From a virus, in IMG/VR virus record IMGVR_UViG_3300029827_000043, positions 1-20,635 of that record: a stretch of DNA of 20,635 nt; one strand, written 5' to 3'. How positions within the stretch are numbered: position 1 is the first letter of the stretch; each line of letters starts with the position of its first letter. The notes beneath the pieces are model-generated. The model had not been told where the DNA came from and did no database searches. It was given only the letters and a program-made list of their open reading frames with translations. This document shows, piece after piece, positions 1-20,635 of this stretch. A program made the position numbers and the translations under genes.

Positions 1-1572
1 GGTATTGGTTCTCAAATGAGGCTGGATATGAATGTTATTCCAGTTGGTACTGAGGATGAAGCATTATCTGAATTGATGCACAATACTATTAAGCATTTCA
101 AAAGAAAACTGAATCTTGATAGGAAAGAAGGGAGATGTTTTGAACACTGTATTAAGAGTGGAAGAAGCTATCTTAACTTCTATATAGATACAAGTAATCC
201 TTTCAAGAAGAAGATAGAAACTAAGGTCTATCGTGGTTATGACTGCTATAAAGACCCAGATTCTACTGAATATGATATGTCTGATGCGAGGTTCTTCTTT
301 GCTAATAAGTGGTTAACAGAGGAAGAGATTAAGCAGTTCTGGCCAGACTTCGATGGAAGTGCTGCTGGAACTGGAAGTTCTGTTGAGGGTATGCCAGACT
401 TCTTTGATGTAACTGCTGAGAAATACAGGCTTGTTGAAGCTTGGTGGCGGGAGATAAAGGAAGTTATTTGGTTTGTAAATCCTGTGAATGGGAAGCAAGA
501 ATACTTATTTCCGCCTGATTTTAAGAAGTTTAGTAATGCTATCATGGAGGGCATTGAAATGCCTATGCCTGATGGCAGCATGAGAAAATTTCAAAACCCA
601 GATGGTGTTCAAGGAATATCTGCTCATAAGAAGATTGTATACTTTGCTATCTTTTCTGGGAGTGGAATATTAAGGTGGGGAATAACTCCATATACTCATG
701 ATATGTTTCCTTTCATTCAGTTTGGTGCTTATGAGGATGACAATAACAATAGGTTCTTTAGTGCAATAACTATGATGAAAGACCCACAGCGTGGTCTTAA
801 CACTATGAGGAGGCAGTTAACTCATTTACTACAAACAGCACCGAAGGGAATACTGTTACATGAGGCTGGTGCGGTTCTCAATATTGAGGACTATGAGGAA
901 AGAAGTGCTGACCCAACATTTCATATGGAGCTATCAAAGGGTGGGCTTAACAGGATTGATTTTACTAAGCAACCACAAATTAGCCCTATATTCCAGGTTC
1001 TTGATGCAACGAATCAGCAAGCAATGAAAGATGCTTCAGGCGTTCAAGACCCTATGATGGGAGTTCAAACTTATTCAAGAGAGCCTGGAATTTCTATGCA
1101 AATGAGGCAGCAAAGTTCTATTGCTGTTTTAAATATCCTATTTGAGAATTATAATGAAAGCAGAAAACTTAGCACAAAAATGCTAATGTCATTGATTCAG
1201 CAGTATGTTACTCAAGAAGAAGTAATAAGAATTGAAGGTCAAAATGGCTGGCAACTGATGAAAATAAACAGTCAGTTGAATCCGCAAGGCCCTGATTTTA
1301 ATGATATAACAGCTGCGGAATTTGACTTAATAATTGATGAAGAATCTATGGCACAAAGTACAAGACTTGCAATAGCCAAGATGCTTGTTGACTTCAGCCA
1401 GAATAATCCTGGTGTTATTCCACCAGATGTTATAATGGACTATACATCTATTCCATTCTCGGTCAAGCAGAGGATTCGAGTCTATCAGGAAGAAATGTAT
1501 CAGAGACAACTCCAGATGATGGAGAAAGAAATGCAACTCAAAAATGCTGGTAAGAAGCAAGGAGGTCAGTAA
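1..1572 (+). CDS. Portal protein, P22-like (5' end outside window)
   Basis: Portal proteins form the dodecameric ring at one capsid vertex through which DNA is packaged and ejected. The frame is open from base 1 (GGT ATT GGT ...), so the first ATG at 16 is probably internal and N-terminal residues are missing; 523 codons are visible. The portion seen resembles P22-type portals: an IPVG segment near the visible start, a DP-S-DMSDAR segment around residues 84-97 followed by LTEEEIKQFWP, and a KDPQRGLNTMRRQ stretch near residue 262, matching the conserved 'DPQR..N' region. The C-terminal part (from about 420) is helical and charged and ends in a Met/Gln/Lys-rich tail, as in many portals. It overlaps the next gene by one base (TAATG). 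Aspartates before proline use GAC throughout. The family call rests on motifs and gene order, without a database search. Confidence 0.85.
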   Translation, partial: GIGSQMRLDMNVIPVGTEDEALSELMHNTIKHFKRKLNLDRKEGRCFEHCIKSGRSYLNFYIDTSNPFKKKIETKVYRGYDCYKDPDSTEYDMSDARFFFANKWLTEEEIKQFWPDFDGSAAGTGSSVEGMPDFFDVTAEKYRLVEAWWREIKEVIWFVNPVNGKQEYLFPPDFKKFSNAIMEGIEMPMPDGSMRKFQNPDGVQGISAHKKIVYFAIFSGSGILRWGITPYTHDMFPFIQFGAYEDDNNNRFFSAITMMKDPQRGLNTMRRQLTHLLQTAPKGILLHEAGAVLNIEDYEERSADPTFHMELSKGGLNRIDFTKQPQISPIFQVLDATNQQAMKDASGVQDPMMGVQTYSREPGISMQMRQQSSIAVLNILFENYNESRKLSTKMLMSLIQQYVTQEEVIRIEGQNGWQLMKINSQLNPQGPDFNDITAAEFDLIIDEESMAQSTRLAIAKMLVDFSQNNPGVIPPDVIMDYTSIPFSVKQRIRVYQEEMYQRQLQMMEKEMQLKNAGKKQGGQ

Positions 1573-2456
1573 TGGGTAAGGATGGCATAGACAGCTTAAT
1601 AGAAAAAGACTTTGATGGTGAAGATATTAACAGTGACCCAGGTGATGTAGAGGACGCTGCATTAGCGGCTGGTCCTGACAAGACTATGGATGAAGATAGT
1701 CCTGATTCTGGGGCAGAGGAAACCCCTGCTGAGCAGGCAAGTTCCGAAACTGATAATGATAATCCCGATAATGCTGGTCAGGAGGCAGAAGCTGCTGCGA
1801 CTGATTCAGACGATGCTGGTGGAGATGTTGATATTCAACCAGCTGACAGGGAAAGTAATTACAGAGCTTTATTGCGTGAACAAGGTCAGACAATTCGTGA
1901 CATAAATGAGCGTAATAAGCTACTGGAAGCTAAGTTGCAAGAAGCTGGCATCTTAAGTGATGAGGATGTCGAAAATTTAAATGCTGATACTTCAGTTGAT
2001 ACAGGTCGTCAAGACCAGCTGATGGATATGCTTGAAATGATGAGGATAAATCCTAAGTTTGAAGATGTTGATACAGTGGTTTCCCAACAGCACCACGATG
2101 ACTTCGTAGATGCCTTGACACGGAGCGTTGCTGAGGATAAAGGAATTTCCTACAGCGATGCTTATGCAATGACTATGGAGCATATTTGGGGACAGAGAAA
2201 CCCATATAAATATCTATATGAAAACATCAAGAAGCATCATCCCTCATACAGAAAAGCCAATGCTGCGACACCTACTGGACGGAAAGCTGATGGAAGCGAT
2301 AACAATGTTGCTCCCAGTATTTCCAATGTTGGAGGTGGAGGCGGTGGAAAAGGTGGCTGGACAATGTCTAAGATAGATGCTATGGATGAATCACAGCTTG
2401 CTAGTGTTCCAGCTGATGTCTACGACAAGTATCTTGCTGAGGAACTGCCTAAATAA
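1572..2456 (+). CDS. Probable capsid scaffolding protein
   Basis: This 294-residue protein lies between portal and major capsid genes, the usual place for a scaffold, which guides procapsid assembly and then leaves the head. Residues 1 to about 90 are very acidic and low in complexity, rich in Asp, Glu and Ala. Residues 95-125 form a likely helix or short coiled coil (RALLREQGQTIRDINERNK). Near the C-terminus is a run of glycines (GGGGGGKGG, about 255-263) followed by a Trp and a short acidic helix. Acidic N-terminus, central helix and compact C-terminal capsid-binding helix is a common scaffold layout, but sequence is poorly conserved in this group, so the call is mainly positional. It starts at the ATG in TAATG at the end of the portal gene, suggesting translational coupling. 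Confidence 0.65.
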   Translation: MGKDGIDSLIEKDFDGEDINSDPGDVEDAALAAGPDKTMDEDSPDSGAEETPAEQASSETDNDNPDNAGQEAEAAATDSDDAGGDVDIQPADRESNYRALLREQGQTIRDINERNKLLEAKLQEAGILSDEDVENLNADTSVDTGRQDQLMDMLEMMRINPKFEDVDTVVSQQHHDDFVDALTRSVAEDKGISYSDAYAMTMEHIWGQRNPYKYLYENIKKHHPSYRKANAATPTGRKADGSDNNVAPSISNVGGGGGGKGGWTMSKIDAMDESQLASVPADVYDKYLAEELPK

Positions 2457-2458
2457 TC

Positions 2459-2463
2459 GGAGG
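2459..2463 (+). promoter_or_regulatory. Ribosome-binding site of the major capsid gene
   Basis: GGAGG lies 8 bases before the ATG at 2472, in the 15-base gap after the preceding stop. It supports an independent strong start for the most abundant virion protein, unlike the coupled TAATG starts elsewhere. Confidence 0.8.
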
Positions 2464-2471
2464 ATTTTTAA

Positions 2472-3521
2472 ATGGGACAGACAAAATTCTTGACCAATAA
2501 TGCGCTTACTCGTAAGAGATGGTCTCGGGAACTTTTCAAAGTCGTTCTCAAGGACATTGAATTTAACGAGCTGATTGGTACAGGGACGGAAAATATCGTT
2601 CAGATGAAGACCGAACTTGGCAAAGGCGAGGGTGATACTATAACAATGGGTATCAGGCTGCCGTTGTCTGGCGAAGGTGTTGTTGGTCGTGATACTGTTG
2701 AGGGGAATGAAGAGGCACTGGTCTTCAAAGACTTTGACATGACCATTGAAGAACTTAATCATGCGGTTGACACTGGTGGCAGAATGGACCAGCAGAGGGT
2801 TCCCTATGACCTTATGCAGGAAGGTAAGATGGGCCTCCAGGAGTGGTGGTCAGATAAGCTTTCTGACTTGATGTTCGCTCATCTTTGTGGTGATACCACC
2901 TTCAGGATTGCTGGCAAAACATTTGCTCAGAATCCATCGGCTCCTGATAGTGACCACTTGGTTCTCGCAGATGATGTAGCTGAGGCATCTATGACCTCGG
3001 CAAATATCCTGGATTTGACCATGCTTGATAGGATGAAACAAATTGCTAGGATACCAAGAGCTGCTACCGGCTACAAGCTTCGTCCACTTATGATTCAGGG
3101 CAAGAAATACTATCGTGTTATACTTCACGACTATGTATTTGATGCTTTGAGGAAAAATACCAATGTTGGTGAGTGGGGTGATATGCTGCGGTCAGCCCAG
3201 AAACTGGCTATGGAGAATGTAGAAATTGTCTACAATGGTATGCTGGTTTCCAAGTCTGAGCGTATTCGCAGAGTACAGGGAGATGCCTCCGGTGGTGTCT
3301 ACCGTAATCTTTTCCTTGGTGCACAGGCTGCTTGTATTGCATGGGGTGGAGCTGGTGAAAGCAAAGGAACTACAATGTCCTTTGTACCCTATGAGAAAGA
3401 TGCAAAACGCTATGTGAATATTCGTGGTGGTGGTATTCTTGGTATAAAGAAGGTTGTCTTCAATAGCCAGGATTACGGTTGTCTGGTAGGTTCTTCCTAC
3501 GCTGAGCCACTGTCTGCGTAA
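2472..3521 (+). CDS. Major capsid protein, N4 gp56 family
   Basis: This 349-residue protein forms the icosahedral shell and should have the HK97 fold. It matches the N4-gp56 type by its N-terminal LTRKRWSRELF segment, the strand-rich GEGDTITMGIRLPLSGEG region (about 54-71), the helix with WWSDKLSDLMFAHLCG (about 124-139), and the C-terminal half with LILHDYVFDALR-like and YGCLVGSSYAE segments. Length fits the family. It has its own GGAGG site 8 bases upstream. Codon use differs from its neighbours: CGN arginine codons and CpG are clearly more frequent, as expected of a very highly expressed gene or one with a different history. The scaffold lies upstream and a probable decoration gene downstream. 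Confidence 0.88.
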   Translation: MGQTKFLTNNALTRKRWSRELFKVVLKDIEFNELIGTGTENIVQMKTELGKGEGDTITMGIRLPLSGEGVVGRDTVEGNEEALVFKDFDMTIEELNHAVDTGGRMDQQRVPYDLMQEGKMGLQEWWSDKLSDLMFAHLCGDTTFRIAGKTFAQNPSAPDSDHLVLADDVAEASMTSANILDLTMLDRMKQIARIPRAATGYKLRPLMIQGKKYYRVILHDYVFDALRKNTNVGEWGDMLRSAQKLAMENVEIVYNGMLVSKSERIRRVQGDASGGVYRNLFLGAQAACIAWGGAGESKGTTMSFVPYEKDAKRYVNIRGGGILGIKKVVFNSQDYGCLVGSSYAEPLSA

Positions 3522-3549
3522 CAATTAATTTCTGGGTAAGGAGGTTATC

Positions 3550-3954
3550 ATGCCTGATAGGTATTCTACAGCAGCATCGGACAACTATCGTCTTGCCAGA
3601 AGCAAGCTGATGATTGAACCAGCTGATGGGAGCTACAACATCATTCATCTACCAAGATTCACCTTTGTTAAGAAAGTATGGGTTCGTATAGATACTGCTT
3701 ATGGTGATGCTGGTGCGACAATGACTGTTGGCTTCATTGGCAACGGTGAATCGGCTGACCCAGATGCTTTCATGACAAGTACTGAATGTGACCCTGATGC
3801 TACTGGAATGAAAACATCTGTGGGTGGGACTGCTGACGAAGCAGAAGGTAAGTGGTTTGACACTGCAAGAGGTGCTATCACCGTTGATGTAGATGACAAT
3901 GGTGGTACAGTTGGAACATTCACAGTTTTTGTGGAGTATACAGTATTGAAATAA
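3550..3954 (+). CDS. Probable head decoration / small virion protein
   Basis: This 134-residue acidic protein follows the capsid gene and has a strong AAGGAGG site (3538-3544). Residues 34-60 (LPRFTFVKKVWVRIDTAYG) alternate hydrophobic and polar residues as in beta strands, followed by Gly/Asp/Thr-rich turns and a closing pair of strands (GTFTVFVEYTV, 122-132). Small beta-sandwich proteins of this look are common next to N4 gp56-type capsid genes in environmental phages, where they are taken to be decoration or stabilising proteins. It resembles the next protein in length, acidic turns and strand pattern. No catalytic motif is visible. Role is inferred from position and composition. Confidence 0.6.
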   Translation: MPDRYSTAASDNYRLARSKLMIEPADGSYNIIHLPRFTFVKKVWVRIDTAYGDAGATMTVGFIGNGESADPDAFMTSTECDPDATGMKTSVGGTADEAEGKWFDTARGAITVDVDDNGGTVGTFTVFVEYTVLK

Positions 3955-3986
3955 GCTGGGATGGTCAAAATTTGAACATCGTAGCT
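3954..3986. repeat. 33-nt imperfect palindrome between two virion genes (copy 1)
   Basis: The sequence is symmetric about base 3970: arms 3954-3969 and 3971-3986 pair over 16 positions with two mismatches (3959/3981, 3964/3976) and one G-T wobble (3958/3982). The central part is GGTCAAAATTTGAAC (3963-3977). The outer arms are AGCT at both ends. The reverse complement of the core occurs exactly at 19145-19159 inside a second palindrome. It starts on the last base of the preceding stop codon and ends 10 bases before the GGAGG of the next gene. No T-run follows, so it is not a typical intrinsic terminator. A protein-binding operator or an RNA processing or stability hairpin are both possible. 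Confidence 0.75.
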
Positions 3987-3996
3987 GTAAATATTT

Positions 3997-4012
3997 GGAG
4001 GAATAACAAATG
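3997..4012 (+). promoter_or_regulatory. Ribosome-binding site with shared TAACAAATG leader (copy 1)
   Basis: GGAGG at 3997-4001 is followed by AATAACAA and the ATG at 4010. The same GGAGG-n-TAACAAATG arrangement precedes the genes at 6061 and 6792, so three small structural genes share a nearly identical translation-initiation cassette. Confidence 0.75.
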
Positions 4013-4498
4013 GCAACTAACGACAAAAGGAGAACAGATGTTAGAAATCAGGTTCTTGAGAATCCTGTTTGGATAACCTCTGCTGAAGTCACTTACGAAG
4101 ACACTGGTGATAATGTCATCTTGTTTGACTTTGTGAATACAGGACAAATCTATGTCATTCATCACTGTATCTGCCAGGTAACCACACTGTTTGCAGGTGG
4201 CACACCGCTGTTGGATTTGGGTTCTGGTACTATTCCTACACCGGATGACCCAACACTGAGTATTGTTGACGCAGACGAGTACATTGCCCAGGCTGACATT
4301 ACAGCCACTTCTACCGGTGTATATGGCTGGGCAACAAGTGATGCTTATACAGCATGGGCTGCAGGGACTCTTGGTCTTGCTATTACCGGTGCTCAGGCAA
4401 CTGTACCTGTTGTATATGCTACAGTGTCTGCATCACTGACTGCAGGAGCTGCACGGTTCCATATGCTGATTTCAAGTATACCAGGAACCCGTTCCTAA
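4010..4498 (+). CDS. Probable second head decoration / small virion protein
   Basis: This 162-residue protein begins after a strong GGAGG site. After a basic N-terminus (NDKRRTDVRNQVLE) comes a strand-rich domain: VTYEDTGDNVILFDF, then IYVIHHCICQVTTLF, a Gly/Asp/Pro loop with LLDLGSGT (about 67-74), a DADEYI turn, and an Ala/Thr/Val-rich C-terminal half. The LGSGT...D...DADEYI arrangement is one I associate with small virion proteins found beside N4-type capsid genes. It looks like a distant relative of the protein at 3550-3954 (same position, beta-rich, acidic loops), but I cannot show homology by eye. It is separated from that gene by an unusual palindrome. Role as a decoration protein is inferred. 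Confidence 0.55.
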   Translation: MATNDKRRTDVRNQVLENPVWITSAEVTYEDTGDNVILFDFVNTGQIYVIHHCICQVTTLFAGGTPLLDLGSGTIPTPDDPTLSIVDADEYIAQADITATSTGVYGWATSDAYTAWAAGTLGLAITGAQATVPVVYATVSASLTAGAARFHMLISSIPGTRS

Positions 4499-4515
4499 GA
4501 TAGGAGGTTGATGTA

Positions 4516-5151
4516 ATGAACTTTGGGAAGCTCATATCAGAGGTACAACTCCTCGTGCAAGACTGGAGTCCAGATATTGCTTCAAGTATCCCTGGGGCTA
4601 TTAATGAGGCTCTAGCCTTCGTAGCAGGAGAGGTAGACCTTCCTGAGTTAAAGGCAGTTACATCAGTGTTGACAGTAGTCGACCAGGCTTGGGCTTCTAT
4701 GCCAAACACCTCTGCTGGCAAGCTTTTGTTTGTTTCCTATGGGAGCGACACAAAGGTTGAAATAAAGCCAAGTTTGACTGACCTCCTAAATGAAAGTCCG
4801 GGACTGGACGATGAGGGAGATGTAGAGATGGTAGCCTTAGAGGGAAATACCCTGTGGTACAGAAAGATACCCTCTGTGGCTACCTCTCTACTAATCCTTT
4901 ATTATAAGCTACCAACGGCACTATCTGGTAATTCTGATATACCTACTTGTTTACCTGAGCATCTTCATAGGGGACTTCTAGCACATGGTGCTGCAAAGAT
5001 ACTTTATGAGAATATTGAGGATGGACTGGATGAGAATGAGAAAGTCAATACACTGCATCATATGAGTCAGCAGGAGTTACATCTTCAAAAGCTTCGGGAG
5101 TGGATTGGTAAGAATAGGCCATCTGCCATAAGGAATCCTTATAATGTCTAA
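4516..5151 (+). CDS. Head-tail adaptor (connector) protein
   Basis: Adaptor proteins bind the portal ring after packaging and join head to tail. This 211-residue protein has the usual layout for podovirus adaptors: an N-terminal helix (FGKLISEVQLLVQD), a PGAINEALAFVAGEVDLPEL helix (residues 28-47), a central strand region with WYRKIPSVATSLLILYYKLP (about 114-133), and a C-terminal helical segment beginning CLPEHLHRGLLAHGAAKILYE (about 143-163), the typical 'P..h..l..ya...ly' part. Its place between decoration genes and a nozzle-like gene supports the call. TAGGAGG at 4501-4507 serves ATG 4516; an ATG-TAA pair at 4511-4516 overlaps this start. Its end overlaps the next gene by 8 bases. Confidence 0.7.
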   Translation: MNFGKLISEVQLLVQDWSPDIASSIPGAINEALAFVAGEVDLPELKAVTSVLTVVDQAWASMPNTSAGKLLFVSYGSDTKVEIKPSLTDLLNESPGLDDEGDVEMVALEGNTLWYRKIPSVATSLLILYYKLPTALSGNSDIPTCLPEHLHRGLLAHGAAKILYENIEDGLDENEKVNTLHHMSQQELHLQKLREWIGKNRPSAIRNPYNV

Positions 5152-6049
5152 AAGATATTTAATGCTGCGAGCAACCACAGGATTGAATAATGTGGTAGAC
5201 CCAGCTCGGCTGAGCTATAACGAAGATAATGGTGTCTGTGAATTAGCTGAAGCTGTCAATGTGGACATAGATAGGACAGGCAGAGTAGGGAGGAGAAAGG
5301 GATATTCTGAAATAGGAAACTTTACCAATGTTCACAGTCTCTATGCGTCGTCTGCTTATATGTATTTTATCTCTGAGGGTATCCTTTATGCTATGAATCA
5401 GTCTGAAGGGACTACAGCACTGGGGAGTATATCTGATGAAAGGACAGCGTTTGAGACTGTTGGTAGCAGGACTTATTTTTCTAATAATATGGATTCTGGG
5501 ATTATTGACGGTTTATCTAGGTCTCCATGGACTGCAGCTTCCTATGTAGGTCCAGCTACTGATAGAACATTTAGTGACCCACCGAAAGGTAATCACTTAA
5601 GATTATTTAATAGTAGGATGCTCATAGGCAGTGGGGATTTAATATGGGCATCTGAAAGATTTTCATATCACTGGTTCGATATGGCAAGAAGCTATATGCC
5701 TGTTGGTTCTGAAATTAGAATGATTGATAAAGTGAGTTCTGGTTTCTATGTTGGAGTTGATGGAAGAATTCTTTACTATCATGGTAATGACTTTGATTCA
5801 GTTGCTATGACAGTAATATCTGATGAGACGATTATAACTGGAACAAATCAGATGATTCAAGGAAGTAACTTTCCTGACTACAGGATTCATGAACAGATGA
5901 TAATTGCAGCAACTAATAGAGGAATTATCCTCCTCGGACCAGGAGGCTTTTACAAAAATTTAACAGATGACAAATTAACTTATGATGCTTCTAAACTTGG
6001 TGGGAGCGTCCTTACTGATAAGAAATACATCTTTTCTTGTGAACCATAG
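5144..6049 (+). CDS. Tail nozzle / stabilisation-like protein
   Basis: This 301-residue protein follows the adaptor, the position of P22 gp10-like tail stabilisation or nozzle proteins, which plug the portal channel and carry tail appendages. The N-terminus holds the signature I rely on: GLNNVVDPARL (13-23) followed by AVNVDIDRTGRVGRRKGY (about 37-54). The rest is a series of short strands with Tyr/Phe/Gly turns (SAYMYFISEGILYAM, GSRTYFSNN, FSYHWFDMARSYM, IIAATNRGIILLG), consistent with a beta-propeller. It ends at FSCEP, short for the P22 protein (about 470 residues), so a C-terminal portion seems absent or is supplied by another gene. The start ATG lies inside the adaptor gene's last codons. 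Confidence 0.6.
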   Translation: MSKRYLMLRATTGLNNVVDPARLSYNEDNGVCELAEAVNVDIDRTGRVGRRKGYSEIGNFTNVHSLYASSAYMYFISEGILYAMNQSEGTTALGSISDERTAFETVGSRTYFSNNMDSGIIDGLSRSPWTAASYVGPATDRTFSDPPKGNHLRLFNSRMLIGSGDLIWASERFSYHWFDMARSYMPVGSEIRMIDKVSSGFYVGVDGRILYYHGNDFDSVAMTVISDETIITGTNQMIQGSNFPDYRIHEQMIIAATNRGIILLGPGGFYKNLTDDKLTYDASKLGGSVLTDKKYIFSCEP

Positions 6050-6063
6050 GAGGATAACAAATG
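6048..6063 (+). promoter_or_regulatory. Ribosome-binding site with shared TAACAAATG leader (copy 2)
   Basis: AGGAGG at 6048-6053 overlaps the preceding TAG stop and is followed by ATAACAA and the ATG at 6061, nearly the same leader as before 4010 and 6792. Confidence 0.75.
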
Positions 6064-6780
6064 GGTCTTAAACTGAGTACAGGTTTGAGGAACTCCTTAC
6101 TAGCTGACGCTTTCCACATGGGTACTACGCTTCAGTATAATGATAATGGAGGTTCTCCCGACACAATAACCGATAGCGAAAATACATTCCTCACAAGAGG
6201 TTTTCGTGTGGGAGATGCTATTACAACTGCGAATTCAACTACCGCTGGCAATGATATATCAGGTATTACATTGACTGCTGTATCTGCGAGTACACTGACT
6301 TTTGCCACCGGTACACTTGCTGCAACGGAGGCCTTTGAAGCCGATACTACGGTAACAAGCGATAATGGAGAATCCTTCCAGGAATTGCTAAAGGATGGAG
6401 TCATCAGGATTTATTCTGGCTCCCAGCCTTCATCCGCAGATGATGCTGAAACAGGTACATTACTTGTTACTATCACAGTCGGTTCTGGTGCCTTTACACC
6501 AGGTTCTCCGACTAATGGGCTTGAGTTTGGGCCTATTGTAAGTGGCATTTTATCCAAGCGTTCTGATGAAGTTTGGTCAGGCGTAGGTGTTGCTGCTGGT
6601 ACAGCGGGATGGTTCAGGTATTATTCTAATCCCATGGACACTGGTGCAAATGCAACTGCTGTGAGATTTGACGGTAATGTAGCTACAAGTGGAGCAGTCA
6701 TAAATATGTCATCTACCAATATTGTTATAGGTGCTACATCAACGGTAGATACTTTTGCAATAACTCTACCCGCTTCTTAA
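6061..6780 (+). CDS. Small virion protein with an inserted beta domain
   Basis: This 239-residue protein begins MGLKLSTGLRNSLL, a start I recognise in a common family of small phage structural proteins of unknown role. In that family the N-terminal helix runs directly into an IRIYSGSQPSSADDAETGT segment, a GLEFG strand, and an EVWSGVGVAAGTAGWFR segment. Here those pieces sit at about 114-132, 154-158 and 171-187, and residues of roughly 20-105 are an added Thr/Ser-rich domain with TDSENTFLTRGFRVGD and ISGITLTAVSASTLTF, like Ig-like or fibre modules. The protein therefore looks like a known core with a surface domain inserted after its first helix. It probably sits on the tail or head surface. 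No enzymatic motif is seen. Confidence 0.55.
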   Translation: MGLKLSTGLRNSLLADAFHMGTTLQYNDNGGSPDTITDSENTFLTRGFRVGDAITTANSTTAGNDISGITLTAVSASTLTFATGTLAATEAFEADTTVTSDNGESFQELLKDGVIRIYSGSQPSSADDAETGTLLVTITVGSGAFTPGSPTNGLEFGPIVSGILSKRSDEVWSGVGVAAGTAGWFRYYSNPMDTGANATAVRFDGNVATSGAVINMSSTNIVIGATSTVDTFAITLPAS

Positions 6781-6794
6781 GGAGGTAACAAATG
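6779..6794 (+). promoter_or_regulatory. Ribosome-binding site with shared TAACAAATG leader (copy 3)
   Basis: AAGGAGG at 6779-6785 overlaps the preceding TAA stop and is followed by TAACAA and the ATG at 6792, the third occurrence of this initiation cassette. Confidence 0.75.
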
Positions 6795-11650: not shown

Positions 11651-11655
11651 GGTGA
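11649..11655 (+). promoter_or_regulatory. Ribosome-binding site of the coiled-coil gene
   Basis: GAGGTGA overlaps the preceding TGA stop (11648-11650) and lies 3-4 bases before the ATG at 11659, which supports this start. Confidence 0.6.
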
Positions 11656-11658
11656 AAT

Positions 11659-13656
11659 ATGCCAGTTGAAACAACAGTAACAGATTGGACTTTTGAGATA
11701 GATTGGACTCAATGGAGAAGTCCTTATTGGGCAAGCACTATAGTCAAAGACCAGTTCGATTTGGCTAAAGCATATGCTGATACAATATGGAATCTTGCTG
11801 TTGAAACTGCAGCAGACCTTGTTGACGACAACTTTCAGTTTACTCCATCTGATATAGAGCAGGAAACTAATGTAGTAACCTTTGATGCTGTAACAGCTGA
11901 TGTCCCTGAACCTGATATTAATGTTGACTTTGATAGAGTGGATAATCCAGTAAAACCTACGCTGGATAGTTATCCTACTATAAATCCTGTTAACATTCCT
12001 ACATTTACAGAAGAAATAACTGTTAATATCCCAGAGATTCCTATTGTAACTTGGCCAGAAGAACCTGGTGATGTACCAGATGTTCCTAATAGAGATATGC
12101 CAGCATCTCCCGATGTTGAACTGCCTACTGTTCCAGTCCTCGAAGACATTACTTTACCAGAAGCTCCTACTATTCAAAGGCCTGGATTTGATGCACAGGA
12201 GCCAGTATTATCAGTCACACCTCCAGGTAATACATTTATATATAACGAGCAAGTTTATCAGTCAGCATTGGGAGATGCACTAGATGCTAGGTTACTTGAA
12301 GAAGTACTTGCAAATAGGACTGTACTGTCTGATGGAACAGTTACCTTTGGTTCTGGTATTCCTGCCATAGTTGAAAATGCTATCTATGAAAGAGGTCTTG
12401 ATAGACTTCAAGATGAGGTTGATAATAACTATAGAGAAATTGAGCAATACTTTAGTGCCAGAGGACATGAGATTCCTCCAGGTGCTATGTCTGGAAGATT
12501 GCTTGAAGCTAATAAGGTTGCTGCAAGACAGAGACTTGACCACAGTAATGCAGTCCTTGTTCAGGCATTTGAAGTTGCCCAAAAGAATAATCAGTTTATA
12601 ATAAGTGCTGGATTACAGCGTGAAGACTCACTAATGCAGTTTGCTAATCAAGTTGCACAGCGAGCATTTGAAACTGCAAAATATATCCAGGAAGCAGCAA
12701 TACTTGTGTTTAATGCTAATCTTAATTATTTCAATGCACAAGTAGAATTGTATAAGACAAAGCTTGCTGCATATGAAAGTGAGATAAGAGCTGAGATATT
12801 GTATCTTGAAGCATATAAGACACAGCTTGAAGGAGCGAGAATAAGGAAAGACTTGCAGGTGGCTGATGTTCAGATATATACAGCTCAGGTTGGTGCTGTA
12901 GAAACTTTGATTAATCTTTACAGAGCACAAGTTGATTCAGTAAGAATTGCAATAACTGCAGATGCTGCGAGAGTCCAGGCATATGGTGAAAAGGTAAGAG
13001 CTTATGCTACAGCAGTTGGAGCAAATACTGCAAAGTATGATGCTTACAAAGCTCAGATAACTGGTGAACAGGCTAAGGTAGATGTTTACAACGGTCTTGT
13101 AAGAGCATTTGTTGCTAAGGTGGAAGGAGCTAAATCTCAGGCTCAAGTGAATGAGATTGAATCAAGGCAGGTTATTGAAAAGAATAGAGCCTTAATAGAA
13201 GGTTACACTGCAGATATTAATAAGTACAGTGAGGAGATTAAAGCTATCTTAGGAAGTGGACAGATTCAGGGACTGATTTTTGATAGCAAAATAAAGGCAG
13301 CAGTAGCCAATATTGAGGCTCTTCGCTCTAACAATGAACTGGCTATAAAGGCCCAAGAAGTAACTATTGCAAGCATCAATGCACTTAATGATAGAGTTCT
13401 TAAACAAGCTGAGATAAACATCCAAGGAGCTATACAGACAAATGCACTGACTATAGAAGCAAAGAAGGCTGGCTCTTCTATGGCTAGTCAATTAGCAGCT
13501 TCCGCAATGAGTAGCATACACGCAAGTGCTGCAATGCAACACGGAAGCAACGATAGTTCTTCATCAGACCTTACAGCTAGTGATGTTAGAAGGTCACTGT
13601 CATTTAATGCTAATGTTGGTGGTGGTTCTGTAGACGACATTGGAAACTTATGGTAG
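11659..13656 (+). CDS. Long coiled-coil virion protein
   Basis: This 665-residue protein has three regions. Residues 1-100 include Trp-rich and helical segments. Residues about 100-192 are an extended Pro-rich stretch with short repeats (PEIPIVTWPEEPGDVP, PDVELPTVPVLEDITLPEAP). A short domain with SARGHEIPPGAMSGRL (about 266-281) leads into ~330 residues of nearly continuous Ala/Gln/Glu/Lys helix with 'AY...V.A...A' periodicity (VQAYGEKVRAYATAVGA near 437), a likely long coiled coil. The end is Ser/Gly-rich (SSSSDLTASDV). The RGx-PPGxM-R motif before a long helix recurs in phage structural proteins of unknown role. It could be a fibre shaft, a DNA-ejection component or a tape-measure-like rod; without tail tube genes the first two are preferred. 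Confidence 0.55.
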   Translation: MPVETTVTDWTFEIDWTQWRSPYWASTIVKDQFDLAKAYADTIWNLAVETAADLVDDNFQFTPSDIEQETNVVTFDAVTADVPEPDINVDFDRVDNPVKPTLDSYPTINPVNIPTFTEEITVNIPEIPIVTWPEEPGDVPDVPNRDMPASPDVELPTVPVLEDITLPEAPTIQRPGFDAQEPVLSVTPPGNTFIYNEQVYQSALGDALDARLLEEVLANRTVLSDGTVTFGSGIPAIVENAIYERGLDRLQDEVDNNYREIEQYFSARGHEIPPGAMSGRLLEANKVAARQRLDHSNAVLVQAFEVAQKNNQFIISAGLQREDSLMQFANQVAQRAFETAKYIQEAAILVFNANLNYFNAQVELYKTKLAAYESEIRAEILYLEAYKTQLEGARIRKDLQVADVQIYTAQVGAVETLINLYRAQVDSVRIAITADAARVQAYGEKVRAYATAVGANTAKYDAYKAQITGEQAKVDVYNGLVRAFVAKVEGAKSQAQVNEIESRQVIEKNRALIEGYTADINKYSEEIKAILGSGQIQGLIFDSKIKAAVANIEALRSNNELAIKAQEVTIASINALNDRVLKQAEINIQGAIQTNALTIEAKKAGSSMASQLAASAMSSIHASAAMQHGSNDSSSSDLTASDVRRSLSFNANVGGGSVDDIGNLW

Positions 13657-13660
13657 GAGG
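13655..13660 (+). promoter_or_regulatory. Ribosome-binding site overlapping a stop codon
   Basis: AGGAGG begins inside the TAG stop of the coiled-coil gene and lies 5 bases before ATG 13666, so termination and initiation here are closely linked. Confidence 0.75.
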
Positions 13661-13665
13661 CTAAT

Positions 13666-14382
13666 ATGCCAACAGTAGATGATTTAGAAGCAATACGAAG
13701 GGAATCACAAGCTGTATTTAATACAGGTAGTTCTCTTGGATTCACTGGAGTCAAGAACTATTCTAATACTGCAGCCGGTAGAAAGAAGCAGGCCAATGAC
13801 CAGTTTGCTGCAGCATTTGCAAACCTTCCAAGGTTCATAGCTTCCCAAACTAAAGCAGCCTCTAATCTTGCTTTATCAAAGCAGGAGCTTGCTAATAAAG
13901 GAGCACTTGCTGCTGCCAAGGCTGCTGGAAATATTACACTTGAAGCTAAGAAAATGGAGCTAGCTCAAAATGAGAAGGAAGCACTTCGGCAGCTTTCCTG
14001 GGCAAGTAAGGAAATGGAGAAGTACTACGGTGGACAGGAAGGAACTCCTGGAGCAGAGTTACCTGGTCAAGTATCTCCATCAGATAATCCTATTACGAGA
14101 ACACTAACAGGAGGGTATACCAATACAAGTCCTGTTTCATCTGTTATGAATAAAGTATTAGGTAGCTCTGGTGGAAGTGTATTTACTAATAGACAAGAGA
14201 CTCCCTCCAACTATGTTGCTGTGCCCCAGCCGTGGAGACCTACTAATGCACCAGAAGGAACTACACAAAGAAAGAGTGGAAGGGTGTCTGATATTACAAC
14301 TGAAGTATTCGGAAGACTACTTAGTCCACAGTTTTACAGGTGGTTTAAATCCCCAGAAGAATATGCTTATAAAGGACAATAA
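13666..14382 (+). CDS. Small alanine-rich helical protein, probable internal virion protein
   Basis: This 238-residue protein has an Ala/Lys/Gln-rich helical stretch (about 38-125: ASQTKAASNLALSKQELAN, then AAAKAAGNITLEAKKMEL) followed by a Gly/Pro/Ser/Thr-rich disordered region, and a short C-terminal helix with SPQFYRWFKSPEEY. It lies just before the 1,580-residue protein. In podoviruses, small helical proteins next to giant ones are often packaged ejection proteins (such as T7 gp14 or P22 gp7), and I infer a similar role, though no family motif is recognised. A GGDN-like nuclease or lysozyme motif is absent. It ends 3 bases before the next start. Confidence 0.45.
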   Translation: MPTVDDLEAIRRESQAVFNTGSSLGFTGVKNYSNTAAGRKKQANDQFAAAFANLPRFIASQTKAASNLALSKQELANKGALAAAKAAGNITLEAKKMELAQNEKEALRQLSWASKEMEKYYGGQEGTPGAELPGQVSPSDNPITRTLTGGYTNTSPVSSVMNKVLGSSGGSVFTNRQETPSNYVAVPQPWRPTNAPEGTTQRKSGRVSDITTEVFGRLLSPQFYRWFKSPEEYAYKGQ

Positions 14383-14385
14383 GCT

Positions 14386-17300
14386 ATGAGTATCGTAGAA
14401 TCTGTATTATCAACAGCAAGACAGGATTACTTCAGGAGACTTAGTGAACAAGCTAAGTTAACGGAGAAGATTGAGAAAAGAGATACCTATCTTGCCACCC
14501 CTGAGAAGGTAGATGTTCAGGTAGCTAAATTGGCTGCGAAACATCTCCCACCGAAGAAAGCTGTTGAGAAGCTTACAACATCTGTCCTTGACCCAATAAC
14601 TTCTATTGAGGAGGGATTTGCTAAGGATGACCCGATGAGGAGCTTAGCAAGAGATGTTAGAGCCAACCTAGAAAATCCTGATATTGTAAACCAGTATGGG
14701 CCTAGAATATCAGGGCCTCAGGTGGTTGAAGATGTCTATAAGAGAACTCTTGTAGATTATCTTAATACTGGTAAGCCATATGAATATAAGAGAAAAGCTG
14801 AAACAGCTATGCCGTTCTTCAAAAAAGATACTGGAGAACTTCCTGGATATGAACAATGGAGAGCAACTGAGGGAGCTGATAAACCCAGAGAGTGGGCTAA
14901 CTTTAGGAAGGGATTAACTCCTGAAGGAATAAAGGAATATATGCAGTTCGGTGCTGGAACTACTCTAGCACTTGCTGGTGTAGAAAAGCTTGGATGGAGA
15001 GGAATATCTAAGTTAGCTGGAACAATACTTGAGGAGACTCCAGCTCTTGGGCCTTGGGGAATAGTCTCAAAGATTGCTGGTGCTGCATTAATAGCTATCC
15101 CTGAATTTCTGGCATTTGATGCTGCAAGGGATGTTGTTAAAGATAGTGGTTGGGCTCAGGCTAGACAGGATGAACCTCTTAAGACTGAGATTGCAAGCTT
15201 CGCACTTGGAGCTGCTGTTCCCTTTGGGGCAACTACTGTAGCAAGAAGGCTTCGTAAAGGATATAAAGACGTTGCTGCCTATAATGCTGAAAGGCTGCAA
15301 CATGCTATGGATGTTACTAAAGAATGGACTCAGGCTGGATATGGTGGCGAAGGTAATACTGCATTGTCCATCCTTAATAAGCAACTTGTAGAATCTAAGC
15401 TTATAAACAAGACACAAGAGGTTGCTGACTTAGAGGTTGGCTTCAATAGGCTTCTGAAGAAAGATAAAGCAGGATTTGATAGTGTATTAGCTAAGTTTGA
15501 AGAGCAGGTTGCTAAGCCTAAGAATCTCATTGATGAAGCTCTTGGAGTCACAAAACAGTTTGGGCCTGAGGCACTAGACAGGTCATTTAGAAATATAGTC
15601 AGTAAGACAACAGGTATAGTAGACTCTGATATTGACATGATGCTGCAGTTAAATGTTGATGTTCTTGGAGATATTCAGGCTGCTGAATCATTGGGAGGAA
15701 AGATAACCACTGCTGTTAAGCAAAGTGCAGAGTCAAGACTTGCTAATACATATAATAAAGCTTTGTCAAGTCTTGATGAGAAGGGTGTTGAACAAACAGC
15801 TGATTTGATGGCTGAAGGTCTTGGCAGGAAAGAAGCTGCTATTAAAGCATATCGTTCACAGCTTGATGAAGGAAGATTATCTCTACTTACAGCAGATGAA
15901 GTAAGAGGAGAAGCTAAAACTGTTCTTGACAAAGTAACTAAAGATTATAAGCTTGGGAATGCTTTACAGGCTAGACTTATGGCTAGCGATGTTAAGGAAA
16001 CACTTAGTGTTCCAAAGCCTAAGTATACTCCGAACTGGAGAGATATGCCTGTTACTAATGAGGCAGAGTTCAGGAGATATACTAAAGCTGCAGCAATAGA
16101 GATGGAGAGAAAAACAAATATTGCTAAGGCAAGGCTCGGCCATAAGCAGATTACTAAAGACCAGTATAACACAATGAAAGGTAATTACTATAATGAATTC
16201 TGGAATGATGTCTTAAGTGTTGATAAGGAACTTGAAGCACAGTATGCTGCAGCAAGATTACCACTTCCAGATAAGTCTACAATTGAAGCTCAGCTTAAAG
16301 ACCTATTCCCAGAAAGGTGGGCTACAATATCTGAGAAAGCTAAGAGAAACATTAATATTATAGATGAAGAAATAGCAAAAAGCTTTGAAGGGAAAGTTGT
16401 TACTGAAGCCATGGGTGCTCAGGTAATGAATGACCAAATGGCTAAGGGTGATTCAAAAGCTGCTGCTGAAACATTCAGAACTTTATGGCGTGGAACTAAA
16501 GCTACGAGGCCATCTGCAAAAGCTCAGCAAGCTAGAGAAGCTTTAAAGGCTGAGAAGGACTTAATAAAGAAAGGAGCTATGGCAGGTAAGGAACTTCCTG
16601 ATGTTAAGTTCGCTAATGAATCTGAAAATGTAATGTCAACTGCTGAGGATATTGATAGCTTTATTAATACCATAACACAGAATAAGAAATACATTGCAGC
16701 ATTGACATTGATACCAGCCACTGCGCTGCTTGGAATTGATACTAAAGAATCAGAGGCTGCTGCCCTCCCAGTTGAAGCTGCAAAAGTAAGTGCACTAGCT
16801 GCTAGAGAGTTTGTTGACTATTATAAGTACGGAGCAAGGTCTCAAGAGCAGCTTATGAAGGATATGATTAAAAGAGGATATGTTTCTATCTTTGGTACTA
16901 ATAAATATCTTCCTAAGCAATATATGAATGGTGTTTCTCAGATGGCTCTTAAAGACCATTGGAAGCTTGGTCATAGCGATATGATAAAGAACTTTAATGG
17001 TGTTAATCATTTCCTTACTAATCTTATGACTAAGCCGGCCATCGGAGGTTTAATCTATCATAAGTGGTTTAATCCCTGGGTTGAGATGGCTAGTAGAATA
17101 ACTGCTGCGTTTGAGAATACTTCAATGGATAAACTAGCAGTATCAAATATCCTTGGAGATGTTAAGGGTCTTAATTCTGGTTCCCACAAAATAATAGCAG
17201 ATACGATGAAACCTGTTGCTGATAAGTATTATCAATCTGCTGTTGAAGCTGATATAGCAAAGAGAATGGTAACACAGATTGAAGAAGACTTAAATCCATT

Positions 17301-19128
17301 ACTTGCTAAACAGACTGCTGGTAAGCTTAAGGAAGGTGATATAGACCTTATTAATAACCTTAAAAAAGCTATGACCAAGAATCAAGAGATATATGATGTA
17401 AAGCATAAAGAGTTTCTTACACTAGGAAAAGGCTGGGAAAATACTGCTAAGTCGCTTGCACAGAAGTTTGCTGAAACAAGAATATTCTTAGCCCTGGATG
17501 ATACAGCAGAATTTGCTAAGTATCCTTGGTTAAAGCCAATGTTGACAAGGGGAGAGAATGCTGCCGTAAGTAGGTTCAGGGATTTACTAGGGAAGAAAGG
17601 AGCAATGATTGAACAGGCTGGTGAGGATGTAATAACTGGACCTTATGTTCATTATGCTGCCCATCCAGCAGTTGATTTCTCGAAGCTGCAAAACCAGTAT
17701 AGAAACTATATGACTGGTGAATTGGAGACTGTTAAGTTTGCTCACTTCCATAGCAGAAGTCTAGGTGCAAAGCCAATGATGCCTGACATAGTCTATTCTA
17801 TGGAGAAATATTTCCCTGATGCTAATAGAAGAATACAGGTTTCTGATTTCTGGAAGAGTGGATGGCGTGACCATATGCACTGGGCTATGCAGCAAACTGA
17901 TGGACTGAAGAATTTCTGGAATGACTTTAATGGAGCATTTAAGCCTGTTGCAGACACACCTTGGAATAGAAGATTCAGGACTTATTATGCACTTGAAACA
18001 GCAAGATTATTGTTTGCATCTCCTTCTGTTGCATGGAAACATATGCTGAAGCAGACAGGTAATGTGGCTATGTTTGGGCTTGGGCCAATAGTTAGAAATT
18101 CTCATAAAGCATTTCAGTCTGAGATGACAGCGAGATTATCATCTAAACTTTACAGAGATGTTTCACTTGATACAGGAAAGTCACTGACAGCATATGAGCG
18201 GTCTTCATTTATTAAAGCTTTATCTAATCAAGGCTCCTTTAATAATGTTGTAAATGACCTTGACCTAGGTGATATTCCTGTTGGTAGGCTATCAAATGCA
18301 CTGGCTAAGTGGAATGAAAAAGGTGCTGTCATGGTTGACTTGGTAGAGAAGTTTGACCGTGGTAATAGTATTTTCATGGCACTTGAGATGGCCGGTAAAA
18401 AGGGAATGACTCCAGAACAGGCTGCCTATTCAGTATATGATACAATCATAAGGGCTAACTTCTTGTCAGGGGTAACTAATCCTACCTGGCTTCGTGACCC
18501 AAAGATGAGAGCATTTCTAATGTTCCAGGGTACTCCGTTTAAGCTTATGGAGCAAAGAGTATTAAGGGCTATATCAGGTGTTAAAGCGATAAGTAATTCT
18601 GCTAAGAAACTATGGAAACAAGCAGATGCTTTGCAGGAACTTAAAGCAGAAATGAAAGGAACTGAGAATGCGTTTAAAGCGAATCTTATTATGGATAGTC
18701 TTAATTTGGATACTGACATCTTTGGAACGAATATTGGCAAGCAATTTATGACTAATGTTCTTGTCCTCGGTGGTGTAGCCTTTACAGGATTACAAACTAC
18801 AGATTCTAATCTGTGGCCACAACTATTTCATCCACCATTTATTAAGCCTGGGCCAGAGCAAATAGGGATTGGACTTAGCCCTATTGTTCAAGCAGCGTGG
18901 TCAGCTTCTCATAAGAAGGCTGATGATAACTGGTTCTTTAACTATGCAGCTAGACAATACTTTGCTGCTGGAAAGAATGTAGGGCCACAAGACTTATTGC
19001 CTGTTAACTTTAAAAAAGCCATTAGGCTTATGAGGGAAGACAATCCTAAGCTTTATGGTGATGATAACTGGACATTCTTTAGGTATCTATTTGCAATCCC
19101 AGCAAAGGGCAAGGGACATCTGCAATAA
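14386..19128 (+). CDS. Giant internal virion / DNA-ejection protein
   Basis: This 1,580-residue protein is the longest in the window. It is mostly charged helix (Lys, Glu, Ala), with hydrophobic islands: about 188-290 (FGAGTTLALAGVEKLGW ... IAGAALIAIPEFLAF ... SFALGAAVPFGATTVA), about 767-782 (YIAALTLIPATALLGI, then KESEAAAL), and about 1454-1470 (MTNVLVLGGVAFTGLQ). Residues 1357-1397 contain a segment with RDPKMRAFLMFQGTPFKLME, similar to conserved C-terminal parts of large phage virion proteins. Size, helical make-up, hydrophobic patches and position after a small helical protein fit an ejectosome protein that enters the host envelope with the DNA, as T7 gp16 does. I see no transglycosylase or peptidase site and no T/DxxGR polymerase motif. 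Ribosome site before ATG 14386 is weak (GGAC 9 bases upstream). Confidence 0.6.
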   Translation: MSIVESVLSTARQDYFRRLSEQAKLTEKIEKRDTYLATPEKVDVQVAKLAAKHLPPKKAVEKLTTSVLDPITSIEEGFAKDDPMRSLARDVRANLENPDIVNQYGPRISGPQVVEDVYKRTLVDYLNTGKPYEYKRKAETAMPFFKKDTGELPGYEQWRATEGADKPREWANFRKGLTPEGIKEYMQFGAGTTLALAGVEKLGWRGISKLAGTILEETPALGPWGIVSKIAGAALIAIPEFLAFDAARDVVKDSGWAQARQDEPLKTEIASFALGAAVPFGATTVARRLRKGYKDVAAYNAERLQHAMDVTKEWTQAGYGGEGNTALSILNKQLVESKLINKTQEVADLEVGFNRLLKKDKAGFDSVLAKFEEQVAKPKNLIDEALGVTKQFGPEALDRSFRNIVSKTTGIVDSDIDMMLQLNVDVLGDIQAAESLGGKITTAVKQSAESRLANTYNKALSSLDEKGVEQTADLMAEGLGRKEAAIKAYRSQLDEGRLSLLTADEVRGEAKTVLDKVTKDYKLGNALQARLMASDVKETLSVPKPKYTPNWRDMPVTNEAEFRRYTKAAAIEMERKTNIAKARLGHKQITKDQYNTMKGNYYNEFWNDVLSVDKELEAQYAAARLPLPDKSTIEAQLKDLFPERWATISEKAKRNINIIDEEIAKSFEGKVVTEAMGAQVMNDQMAKGDSKAAAETFRTLWRGTKATRPSAKAQQAREALKAEKDLIKKGAMAGKELPDVKFANESENVMSTAEDIDSFINTITQNKKYIAALTLIPATALLGIDTKESEAAALPVEAAKVSALAAREFVDYYKYGARSQEQLMKDMIKRGYVSIFGTNKYLPKQYMNGVSQMALKDHWKLGHSDMIKNFNGVNHFLTNLMTKPAIGGLIYHKWFNPWVEMASRITAAFENTSMDKLAVSNILGDVKGLNSGSHKIIADTMKPVADKYYQSAVEADIAKRMVTQIEEDLNPLLAKQTAGKLKEGDIDLINNLKKAMTKNQEIYDVKHKEFLTLGKGWENTAKSLAQKFAETRIFLALDDTAEFAKYPWLKPMLTRGENAAVSRFRDLLGKKGAMIEQAGEDVITGPYVHYAAHPAVDFSKLQNQYRNYMTGELETVKFAHFHSRSLGAKPMMPDIVYSMEKYFPDANRRIQVSDFWKSGWRDHMHWAMQQTDGLKNFWNDFNGAFKPVADTPWNRRFRTYYALETARLLFASPSVAWKHMLKQTGNVAMFGLGPIVRNSHKAFQSEMTARLSSKLYRDVSLDTGKSLTAYERSSFIKALSNQGSFNNVVNDLDLGDIPVGRLSNALAKWNEKGAVMVDLVEKFDRGNSIFMALEMAGKKGMTPEQAAYSVYDTIIRANFLSGVTNPTWLRDPKMRAFLMFQGTPFKLMEQRVLRAISGVKAISNSAKKLWKQADALQELKAEMKGTENAFKANLIMDSLNLDTDIFGTNIGKQFMTNVLVLGGVAFTGLQTTDSNLWPQLFHPPFIKPGPEQIGIGLSPIVQAAWSASHKKADDNWFFNYAARQYFAAGKNVGPQDLLPVNFKKAIRLMREDNPKLYGDDNWTFFRYLFAIPAKGKGHLQ

Positions 19129-19135
19129 CATTAAT

Positions 19136-19168
19136 TGCTGTGTTGTTCAAATTTTGACCGACATAGCA
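19136..19168. repeat. 33-nt imperfect palindrome before the cysteine-rich genes (copy 2)
   Basis: Symmetric about base 19152: arms 19136-19151 and 19153-19168 pair at all 16 positions except 19146/19158, with two G-T wobbles (19144/19160, 19140/19164). The core GTTCAAATTTTGACC (19145-19159) is the exact reverse complement of the core at 3963-3977, and GCT/AGC outer arms are also shared. It occupies the centre of the 60-base gap after the giant gene, one of only two gaps over 50 bases in the window; the other holds copy 1. It ends 8 bases before the AAGGAG of the next gene. No T-run follows. Confidence 0.75.
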
Positions 19169-19176
19169 CAAATGAA

Positions 19177-19182
19177 AAGGAG
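19177..19182 (+). promoter_or_regulatory. Ribosome-binding site deciding the start at 19189
   Basis: AAGGAG lies 6 bases before ATG 19189. The in-frame ATG at 19135 lies before the palindrome and has no ribosome site; using it would place the palindrome inside the gene. The later start is preferred. Confidence 0.8.
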
Positions 19183-19188
19183 AAACTA

Positions 19189-19962
19189 ATGGGATTCTAT
19201 GAGAAGCTGGATGAGAAGGATTTTTTAAAGAGGGCATTTTCATTACTGGAGAATGGTAACTACAGGATTAGTGCTGACACAGGATTAATAACTGTTGATG
19301 AACATATTGCCTGGAACTTACCCTGGATTATTATTAAGCATCCTGAGGGAATGAACTGTAGATTACAGCATAATATACTGTTTAATCTCTATAAGAAAGA
19401 CCTGGGCCAGCCACCAATTCGCTGCCAGGAATGCTGGAAGGTTGTGGTAAGACCTAATACTATTGTACAGTTATTCGACCTTATGGCTTTGATGGAGCAT
19501 AATTTTAAACCCATGGATGAGCTGTATGGATTCAAATGTGGGATAGAGAGAAGGGAATATGTTAATGGCTTGTATGGTGGATACTTCTATAACAAGAGTC
19601 TTGATGAAGGAAAAGTAGCTTATAACATAGTAAAGGATGTTATCAGTAAAGAACTTGGTGATGATGTATCTGTCATTCTTAAAAGAGCCTGCACAGAATT
19701 TGAACAGGAGTTTGGTGCTTCTGATAAGTGGTTTATATCTGATGAGCAAAGGACTAATGAGAAAACTATACTCTCATTGTTTGACCCAGGGAGAGCCCCG
19801 CAACCACAGCCTAACTTTGTTAAGATACCTATTATGAAAAGCTGGATTCGGTGGGCTTGTATGTGTGGTGATAAGACTTACTTAGAACTTGTCGATGAAC
19901 CACTTCATGCTAAGTATGTTAGCTATCATGATAAAGAAGTTGAATTTGAAGGAGCAATATAG
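19189..19962 (+). CDS. Cysteine-containing phage protein with CxxCW motif, function unknown
   Basis: A 257-residue protein whose start is set by AAGGAG at 19177-19182. It has seven cysteines: C57, C79 and C82 in RCQECWKVVVRP, C117 (FKCGIERREY), C168 (KRACTEFEQEFG) and C224/C226 (WACMCGD). Distinct blocks look conserved-like: MNCRLQHN, CQECWKVVVRP, KCGIERREYVNGLYGGYFYN (116-135) and RACTEFE...SDKW. I have a faint memory of similar proteins in environmental phages but no function. The spread cysteines could bind zinc or an Fe-S cluster, but the pattern is not radical-SAM (CxxxCxxC) or a simple zinc ribbon. It is coupled by a one-base TAGTG overlap to another cysteine-rich gene, suggesting a joint role. 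Not obviously a virion protein: no signal peptide, membrane segment or repeats. Confidence 0.5.
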   Translation: MGFYEKLDEKDFLKRAFSLLENGNYRISADTGLITVDEHIAWNLPWIIIKHPEGMNCRLQHNILFNLYKKDLGQPPIRCQECWKVVVRPNTIVQLFDLMALMEHNFKPMDELYGFKCGIERREYVNGLYGGYFYNKSLDEGKVAYNIVKDVISKELGDDVSVILKRACTEFEQEFGASDKWFISDEQRTNEKTILSLFDPGRAPQPQPNFVKIPIMKSWIRWACMCGDKTYLELVDEPLHAKYVSYHDKEVEFEGAI

Positions 19963-20438
19963 TGGGTAAACTTTGGTTAATTAGACCTAATGGAAGAATA
20001 TTCCATATACCAGTACAAGGAGCAGATGTAAATACTGGTCAAGACCCAATAGCTGTAGGATTAGTTCAGAGCATTGCTGCTAATCGTTGCCTGTCTCAAC
20101 CTTTTACAGTATCCCATCCTACATATGGAACTGTAACTATAGATTTCTCTAATCCAAACTTGACTGGCTCATGTAATCAGTGTGGTATGTGCTGCACTCA
20201 TGCTCCAGGAGATTGCCCCGATGCTGGAGGGAATTGTGGCTGGCCACTTAATACAAACCTTAATCTTCATATGTGTCAATATCTTACTATAACAGGTAAT
20301 TGGCATCAGTGGCCTAAAGCTGGATTAACCAGGTGTTCTGTATATTCAAACATCCTTGGAACATTTAAAGGTTGTGCGTATGTACCTGACATTATTAAGC
20401 CAGAATGGACTGAATGTGGATTTAGTGAGGCTACATAA
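19962..20438 (+). CDS. CxxCxxCC (YkgJ-like) metal/Fe-S cluster protein
   Basis: This 158-residue protein starts at GTG 19962, overlapping the TAG stop of the previous gene. Residues 71-78 are CNQCGMCC, an exact CxxCxxCC motif as in the YkgJ/UPF0153 family, annotated as zinc- or iron-chelating. Further cysteines follow at 85, 92, 105, 125, 138 and 152. The later part also fits: a CQYL segment (105-108), then TRCSVYSN (123-130) and FKGCAYVP (135-142), parallel to the family's 'C.fL....C.iY..RP..C..fp'. The first 65 residues are strand-rich and unrelated. Function in this family is poorly known; metal or Fe-S binding is inferred. The start by GTG with overlap suggests it is made in tight ratio with its neighbour. 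The next gene overlaps by TAATG. Confidence 0.6.
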   Translation: MGKLWLIRPNGRIFHIPVQGADVNTGQDPIAVGLVQSIAANRCLSQPFTVSHPTYGTVTIDFSNPNLTGSCNQCGMCCTHAPGDCPDAGGNCGWPLNTNLNLHMCQYLTITGNWHQWPKAGLTRCSVYSNILGTFKGCAYVPDIIKPEWTECGFSEAT

Positions 20439-20635
20439 TGGCATTAACTAGATTATATGCAGGTGCTTCTGAGTCAAGTATATCTCCTTCCTGGTCTAGT
20501 ACTTGGACTCATGTAAATACTACATATAGGTATAAATTAACGCTTGATACCCCAGATGGCACTTCTTCTCCATCTGGGCTATATAGTGAGACGGATGGTA
20601 GTGCTACATACTGTGGTATTCTGCAGCTTATCTCG
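20438..20635 (+). CDS. Probable virion surface protein, 3' end outside window
   Basis: The frame opens at ATG 20438, in a TAATG overlap with the previous stop, and is open to the window end (66 codons). It reads MALTRLYAGASESSISPSWS and continues with Ser/Thr/Tyr-rich strands (THVNTTYRYKLTLD, SGLYSETDGSATYCG). This composition resembles beta-rich phage surface proteins, but too little is visible to assign a family. The one-base overlap and same strand show it belongs to the same transcription unit. Confidence 0.45.
   Translation, partial: MALTRLYAGASESSISPSWSSTWTHVNTTYRYKLTLDTPDGTSSPSGLYSETDGSATYCGILQLIS
20551..20578. repeat. Perfect 9-bp inverted repeat inside the last gene
   Basis: CCCAGATGG (20551-20559) and CCATCTGGG (20570-20578) are exact reverse complements around a 10-base loop (20560-20569). 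The stem is GC-rich and would form a stable RNA hairpin in the coding region. The bases after it are CTATATAG, not a T-run, so a classical terminator is unlikely. Confidence 0.6.

Follow-up and report, generated by a model that had tools for sequence, protein, structure and literature searches.

A 20,635-nucleotide fragment of an uncultured virus (the window, meaning the whole stretch of DNA analysed here) contains no GATC site on either strand, and we conclude that this phage very probably purged GATC to evade a host enzyme that cuts the unmodified site. We infer an enzyme that is most likely an orthodox Type II restriction–modification system of the MboI/Sau3AI/DpnII type. Long selection by restriction at GATC had been proposed in an earlier note on this DNA, and it is supported by several lines of evidence: the loss is complete and exceeds codon expectation, it proceeded through synonymous changes, it has been kept up over deep divergence (30% between relatives), it switches patchily from lineage to lineage, and in the wider family only palindromes are eliminated. 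Under such selection, each unmethylated GATC on incoming DNA would be a potential lethal cut site, any mutation creating the site would be removed, and existing sites would be replaced by way of synonymous codon choice.

Judged by its predicted genes, the window comes from a tailed phage, as yet uncultured, of the P22-portal/Phage_capsid_3 type. The capsid and portal profiles scored above their cut-offs (147 and 256 bits, respectively), the virion genes share one direction and no tRNA was found in the window. The features are as follows.

1..20635, unstranded: GATC-free stretch, which makes up the entire virus record (exact count; codon-shuffle null)
1..1572, +: portal protein, truncated at its 5′ end (Pfam P22_portal, 7.8e-76; phrog_156)
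1572..2456, +: acidic protein encoded between the portal and capsid genes, probably a scaffold by position only; no family match in Pfam or PHROG at the usual thresholds
2472..3521, +: major capsid protein (Pfam Phage_capsid_3, 8.1e-43; phrog_334)
4516..5151, +: head–tail adaptor (Pfam SU10_adaptor, 1.9e-13)
5144..6049, +: head-closure-like connector protein (phrog_8040, head closure Hc3, 7.8e-28)
6061..6780, +: virion structural protein (phrog_3758, 1.2e-21)
11659..13656, +: conserved phage protein, function not known (phrog_10969, 1.8e-91)
14386..19128, +: 1,580-amino-acid protein, probably an internal virion or ejection protein by the size and position of its open reading frame; no match in Pfam or PHROG
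15269..15272, unstranded: sole ACGT of the window (exact count)

The window also encodes a 158-amino-acid protein (19962–20438, +) that has no Pfam match and contains a cysteine cluster of the form CxxCxxCC (CNQCGMCC); similar clusters occur in short open reading frames of two relatives (L114:5367–5666 and L115:17840–18157). Paracoccus phage vB_PmaP_KLEP18-1, Rhizobium phage RHph_Y1_10 and Burkholderia phage BcepIL02 have the same combination of a P22-type portal and a Phage_capsid_3 capsid. Among the matches listed, cultured phages with capsid homologues infect mostly proteobacterial hosts and share 27–33% capsid identity with the window, and portal identity to related phages is 20–24%. No cultured phage gave a near DNA match, and the group of the window is distinct from these cultured phages.

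The earlier note had described more than 20 kb without GATC, and exact counting agrees: 0 sites were found where about 60–70 are expected. None of the 491 GAT trinucleotides precedes a C, as had also been claimed (GATA 166, GATG 211 and GATT 114), and ATC is preceded by every base other than G (AATC 80, CATC 60 and TATC 97). A maximal-order Markov model predicts 61.6 GATC sites on one strand and 70.2 in its strand-symmetric form (P = 3e-31), and 300 second-order Markov simulations of the window gave a mean of 61.6 (range 43–87). The codon-shuffled null that had been named as a check, in which every protein and the codon usage are kept, comes nowhere near zero, with a mean of 71.7 (s.d. 5.9) and a minimum of 54 in 2,000 trials. 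Because both kinds of expectation lie so far above zero, base composition, protein content and codon usage fail to account for the absence. With 0 sites against 62–72 expected, GATC is eliminated in the window by the definition of a previous survey, that is, an observed/expected ratio below 0.1 with at least 15 sites expected (PMC6286503).

Most other four-base palindromes are present in the window, in line with the earlier note, which had placed GTAC at 47 and CATG at 543 exactly; GGCC and TCGA do occur, at 341 and 350 rather than at 339 and 348. Measured against expectation, ACGT is nearly lost, and milder depletion is seen for AATT (75 observed, 124 expected), CATG (47 and 104), GATATC (0 and 9.4) and GGNNCC (13 and 35). 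The CATG deficit is common to most relatives and may not be due to restriction.

The loss of GATC was achieved through synonymous codon choice. Aspartate is written GAT in 322 of 412 cases when the next base is not C, and in 0 of 56 cases before C, where all codons are GAC; about 46 GATC sites would be expected in this frame alone. Likewise, in the frame in which isoleucine could complete the site, ATC is used 47 times after a base other than G and in 0 of 69 cases after G. The window holds 1,115 tetramers that are one mutation away from GATC and none that is GATC itself, an absence that must therefore be actively maintained. Asp-Pro pairs written with GAC, already pointed out from the letters alone, are found as GACCCA at 253, 781 and 910 and as GACCCT at 1048 (previously given as near 1050). 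We then aligned the codons of the window with those of L003, which is nearer to the window than most relatives are. This relative has 26 GATC sites at aligned positions; the amino acids are the same in the window at 7 of these 26 and different at 19, as would be expected from the distance between the two. At the conserved residues, the window has GACCCA, GACCAG, GACCAC, GATTTG or CCTATA instead. Examples of synonymous removal from this alignment are listed below.

781..786, +: Asp-Pro written GACCCA where L003 has GATCCA
910: further synonymous removal
1048: further synonymous removal
985: further synonymous removal
2787: further synonymous removal
2952: further synonymous removal
3012: further synonymous removal

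Searching with the major capsid protein yielded about 80 uncultured relatives and two informative contigs from metagenome-assembled genomes (MAGs), and 90 contigs were tested; the longest of the relatives' contigs reach 40–50 kb. Searches with the portal or the 1,580-amino-acid gene confirmed no further close relatives, and two distant loci were recovered with the phrog_10969 gene. In most relatives the observed/expected ratio for GATC is 0.4 to 1.1, and the site is eliminated in 12 of the 90 contigs, on scattered branches: the window (0 observed, 70 expected), L002 (1 and 32), L022 (2 and 29), L013 (2 and 61), L088 (1 and 40), L044 (0 and 59) and six contigs that form one clade (L036, L040, L045, L046, L050 and L051). 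On a short-search tree of the capsid protein with SH-aLRT support, the GATC-free state requires at least six changes, counted without regard to direction. GATC-free and GATC-rich contigs are sisters on this tree, as in L022 (2 sites) and L003 (53, about as expected) or L013 (2 sites) and L094 (59 against 86 expected).

Comparison with L002, the closest relative, bears on the maintenance of the avoidance. Over 5,961 codon-aligned nucleotides the two are 70% identical, and sites present in one of them only number 18 and 28 for TGCA and 11 and 15 for GTAC; GATC was gained in neither (0 and 0), the single GATC of L002 lying outside the codon-aligned region. The window and L022 likewise show no GATC gain over 6,843 aligned bases. 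The lack of any gain at 30% divergence indicates that the pressure persisted on both branches or stopped too recently to show.

Site elimination in this family is restricted to palindromes. Every tetramer was tested in each contig where its expectation reached 15 sites. Elimination (a ratio below 0.1) was seen in 40 of 1,110 palindromic tests and in 0 of 10,422 non-palindromic ones; a looser cut-off of 0.3 gave 51 palindromic and 0 non-palindromic eliminations. These tests, of either kind, are not independent because relatives and overlapping words have a common history, but the difference is striking. The words eliminated are GATC, CTAG, CCGG, GTAC, CGCG, GCGC, CATG and ACGT. Elimination of palindromes only is a signature of Type II restriction. 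In a survey of viruses with known hosts, site elimination was almost confined to orthodox Type II systems and strongest in non-temperate phages (PMC6286503), and the pattern in this family agrees with that survey, as an orthodox Type II enzyme predicts.

Several relatives have lost more than one site. The 37-kb record of L046, counted as two pieces with a 500-base overlap, has no GATC, no GTAC, one CCGG and at most six each of GCGC and CGCG. In the clade of L112–L113 (record G010, 37 kb), L036, L045, L050, L051 and L040, GATC is gone and CCGG and GTAC are nearly all gone; its longer members have also lost most GCGC and CGCG, so that up to five four-base palindromes are purged together. L088 has eliminated CATG (2 observed, 38 expected) together with GATC, and its relative L013, which belongs to that small clade too, has lost GATC alone. 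CTAG is eliminated in eleven relatives on several branches (L023, with 0 of 55 expected, L026, L028, L030, L041, L054, L061, L081, L082, L014 and L027). These mostly retain GATC, which is also reduced in L041 and L014. Many bacteria have few CTAG sites for other reasons, and loss of this word should be read with caution.

In the window, 15.1 ACGT sites are expected and one occurs (P = 4e-6, with 136 tetramers tested in all). Within codon-aligned regions there are 7 ACGT sites in L002, 11 in L003, 5 in L022 and none in the window; the deficit is therefore either a second, younger loss on the branch of the window or one that was reversed in L002. Since ACGT was lost in the window and not in its closest relative, a second system recognising ACGT would probably have been encountered later than the one acting on GATC.

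Loss of GATC has another known route. In a Dam+ host, Dam methylation coupled to MutHLS mismatch repair, or interference by SeqA or Dam, could remove the site without restriction. ΦX174 and those enterobacterial phages that lack GATC resemble the window in having 0 sites; in such phages of Dam+ hosts restriction may not be the cause, and the loss in ΦX174 is partly ascribed to methyl-directed mismatch repair, restoration of GATC lowering its mutation rate eightfold (PMC5014478). In the window considered by itself, moreover, GATC is the main lost site. MutH, however, acts only at GATC, and this explanation predicts that only GATC is affected, whereas ACGT is down to 1 of 15 in the window and CTAG, GTAC, CCGG, CGCG, GCGC and CATG are eliminated in relatives. 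This argues against mismatch repair as the general cause, although it could account for GATC in the window taken alone; overall, we regard it as improbable. Slightly less probable still is a host system of the phosphorothioate (Dnd/Pbe) type, or a methyl-dependent one of the DpnI type, targeting GATC. An archaeal DndCDEA–PbeABCD system does modify a GATC motif, but just 1.4–2.6% of genomic GATC sites are modified in Pbe hosts, a poor fit to cutting of every unmodified GATC (PMC6459918). Similarly, of 46 phages from hosts that have Type IIM GATC enzymes, 45 show under-representation of GATC (CB < 0.8; PMC6286503), but Type IIM enzymes cut methylated DNA only, and the other sites eliminated in the family are ordinary Type II palindromes. 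Base composition, codon bias or a sampling or library artefact, such as DNA cut with Sau3AI, has a negligible chance of being the cause, given the floor of 54 sites in the codon shuffle, the lack of any non-palindromic elimination and the finding of GATC-free and GATC-rich contigs in single samples, which excludes a library artefact (3300027917: L022, 2 of 29 expected, and L074, 94 of 124; 3300047552: L044, 0 of 59, and L039, 44 of 53; 3300014911: L051, 0 of 50, and L028, 40 observed with 38 expected).

The earlier note had suggested that the missing site may help to identify the host. GATC absence alone did not do so. We scanned 84,980 GTDB species genomes with a capsid profile and searched family records for methylases; neither a host nor a restriction enzyme nor a methylase to match came to light, and the link to an enzyme is therefore indirect. 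The scan returned only three loci, consistent with a virulent life style, and the phage is probably virulent. These loci lay on MAG contigs assigned to Woesebacteria, Bacillota and Roseovarius, which were not trusted as pointers to the host, their binning being uncertain and the Roseovarius match a short fragment. A literature search with sample accession numbers yielded no habitat for the closest relative of the window.

A phage could also carry its own Dam-type methylase as an alternative to avoiding GATC. MethyltransfD12 (PF02086) was found in 0 of 50 family records, many of them fragments; nor was there a methylase match among the genes of the window, itself a fragment of a genome. An N6/N4 DNA methylase in a frame of 433–472 amino acids is present in 15 of the 50 records, mostly larger ones, including L095–L111. 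It occurs in both GATC-free (G010) and GATC-rich records, and its presence thus fails to separate the two classes. In G010 it is a ParB_N-like/methylase fusion (L113:15048–16340, −) that resembles CcrM and DpnA in sequence searches. This record lacks GATC, GTAC and nearly all CCGG despite the methylase, which evidently leaves avoidance of those sites necessary. The neighbouring frame (L113:12739–15051, −) encodes a DNA polymerase A with an N-terminal uracil-DNA-glycosylase-superfamily domain in one 770-amino-acid protein, and a 795-amino-acid open reading frame (L115:15456–17843) has a similar start.

Purging of restriction sites is already known from staphylococcal phage K, ΦX174 and the survey by Rusinov in 2018, and the window is a well-supported further case. 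In Staphylococcus phage K and the Twort-like fRuSau02, GATC is likewise wholly absent, which was ascribed to host restriction enzymes (PMC5618024); those are Twort-like myoviruses with known staphylococcal hosts, whereas the window belongs to a different phage type. As here, the survey found Type II palindromes eliminated (ratio below 0.1), more strongly in non-temperate phages, but it drew on viruses with known hosts (PMC6286503), whereas here avoidance has switched on and off repeatedly within one uncultured capsid family. What this family adds is the contrast across its members, with GATC-free and GATC-rich relatives interleaved and only palindromic tetramers eliminated. It allows gains and losses of site avoidance to be counted and, with complete genomes, polarised, and missing sites are a possible host-linking signal for viruses that have no cultured host. 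The sets of missing palindromes differ among members (GATC; GATC and ACGT; GATC, GTAC, CCGG and GCGC; CTAG; GATC and CATG). A more tentative reading, which we consider plausible without favouring it, is that turnover of restriction systems has left a natural record in the family: the missing palindromes would report the enzymes of the current host lineage, and their gain and loss would be fast enough for sister phages to differ. If so, the restriction systems of hosts would be readable from the genomes of their phages, and uncultured phages could be matched to their hosts.
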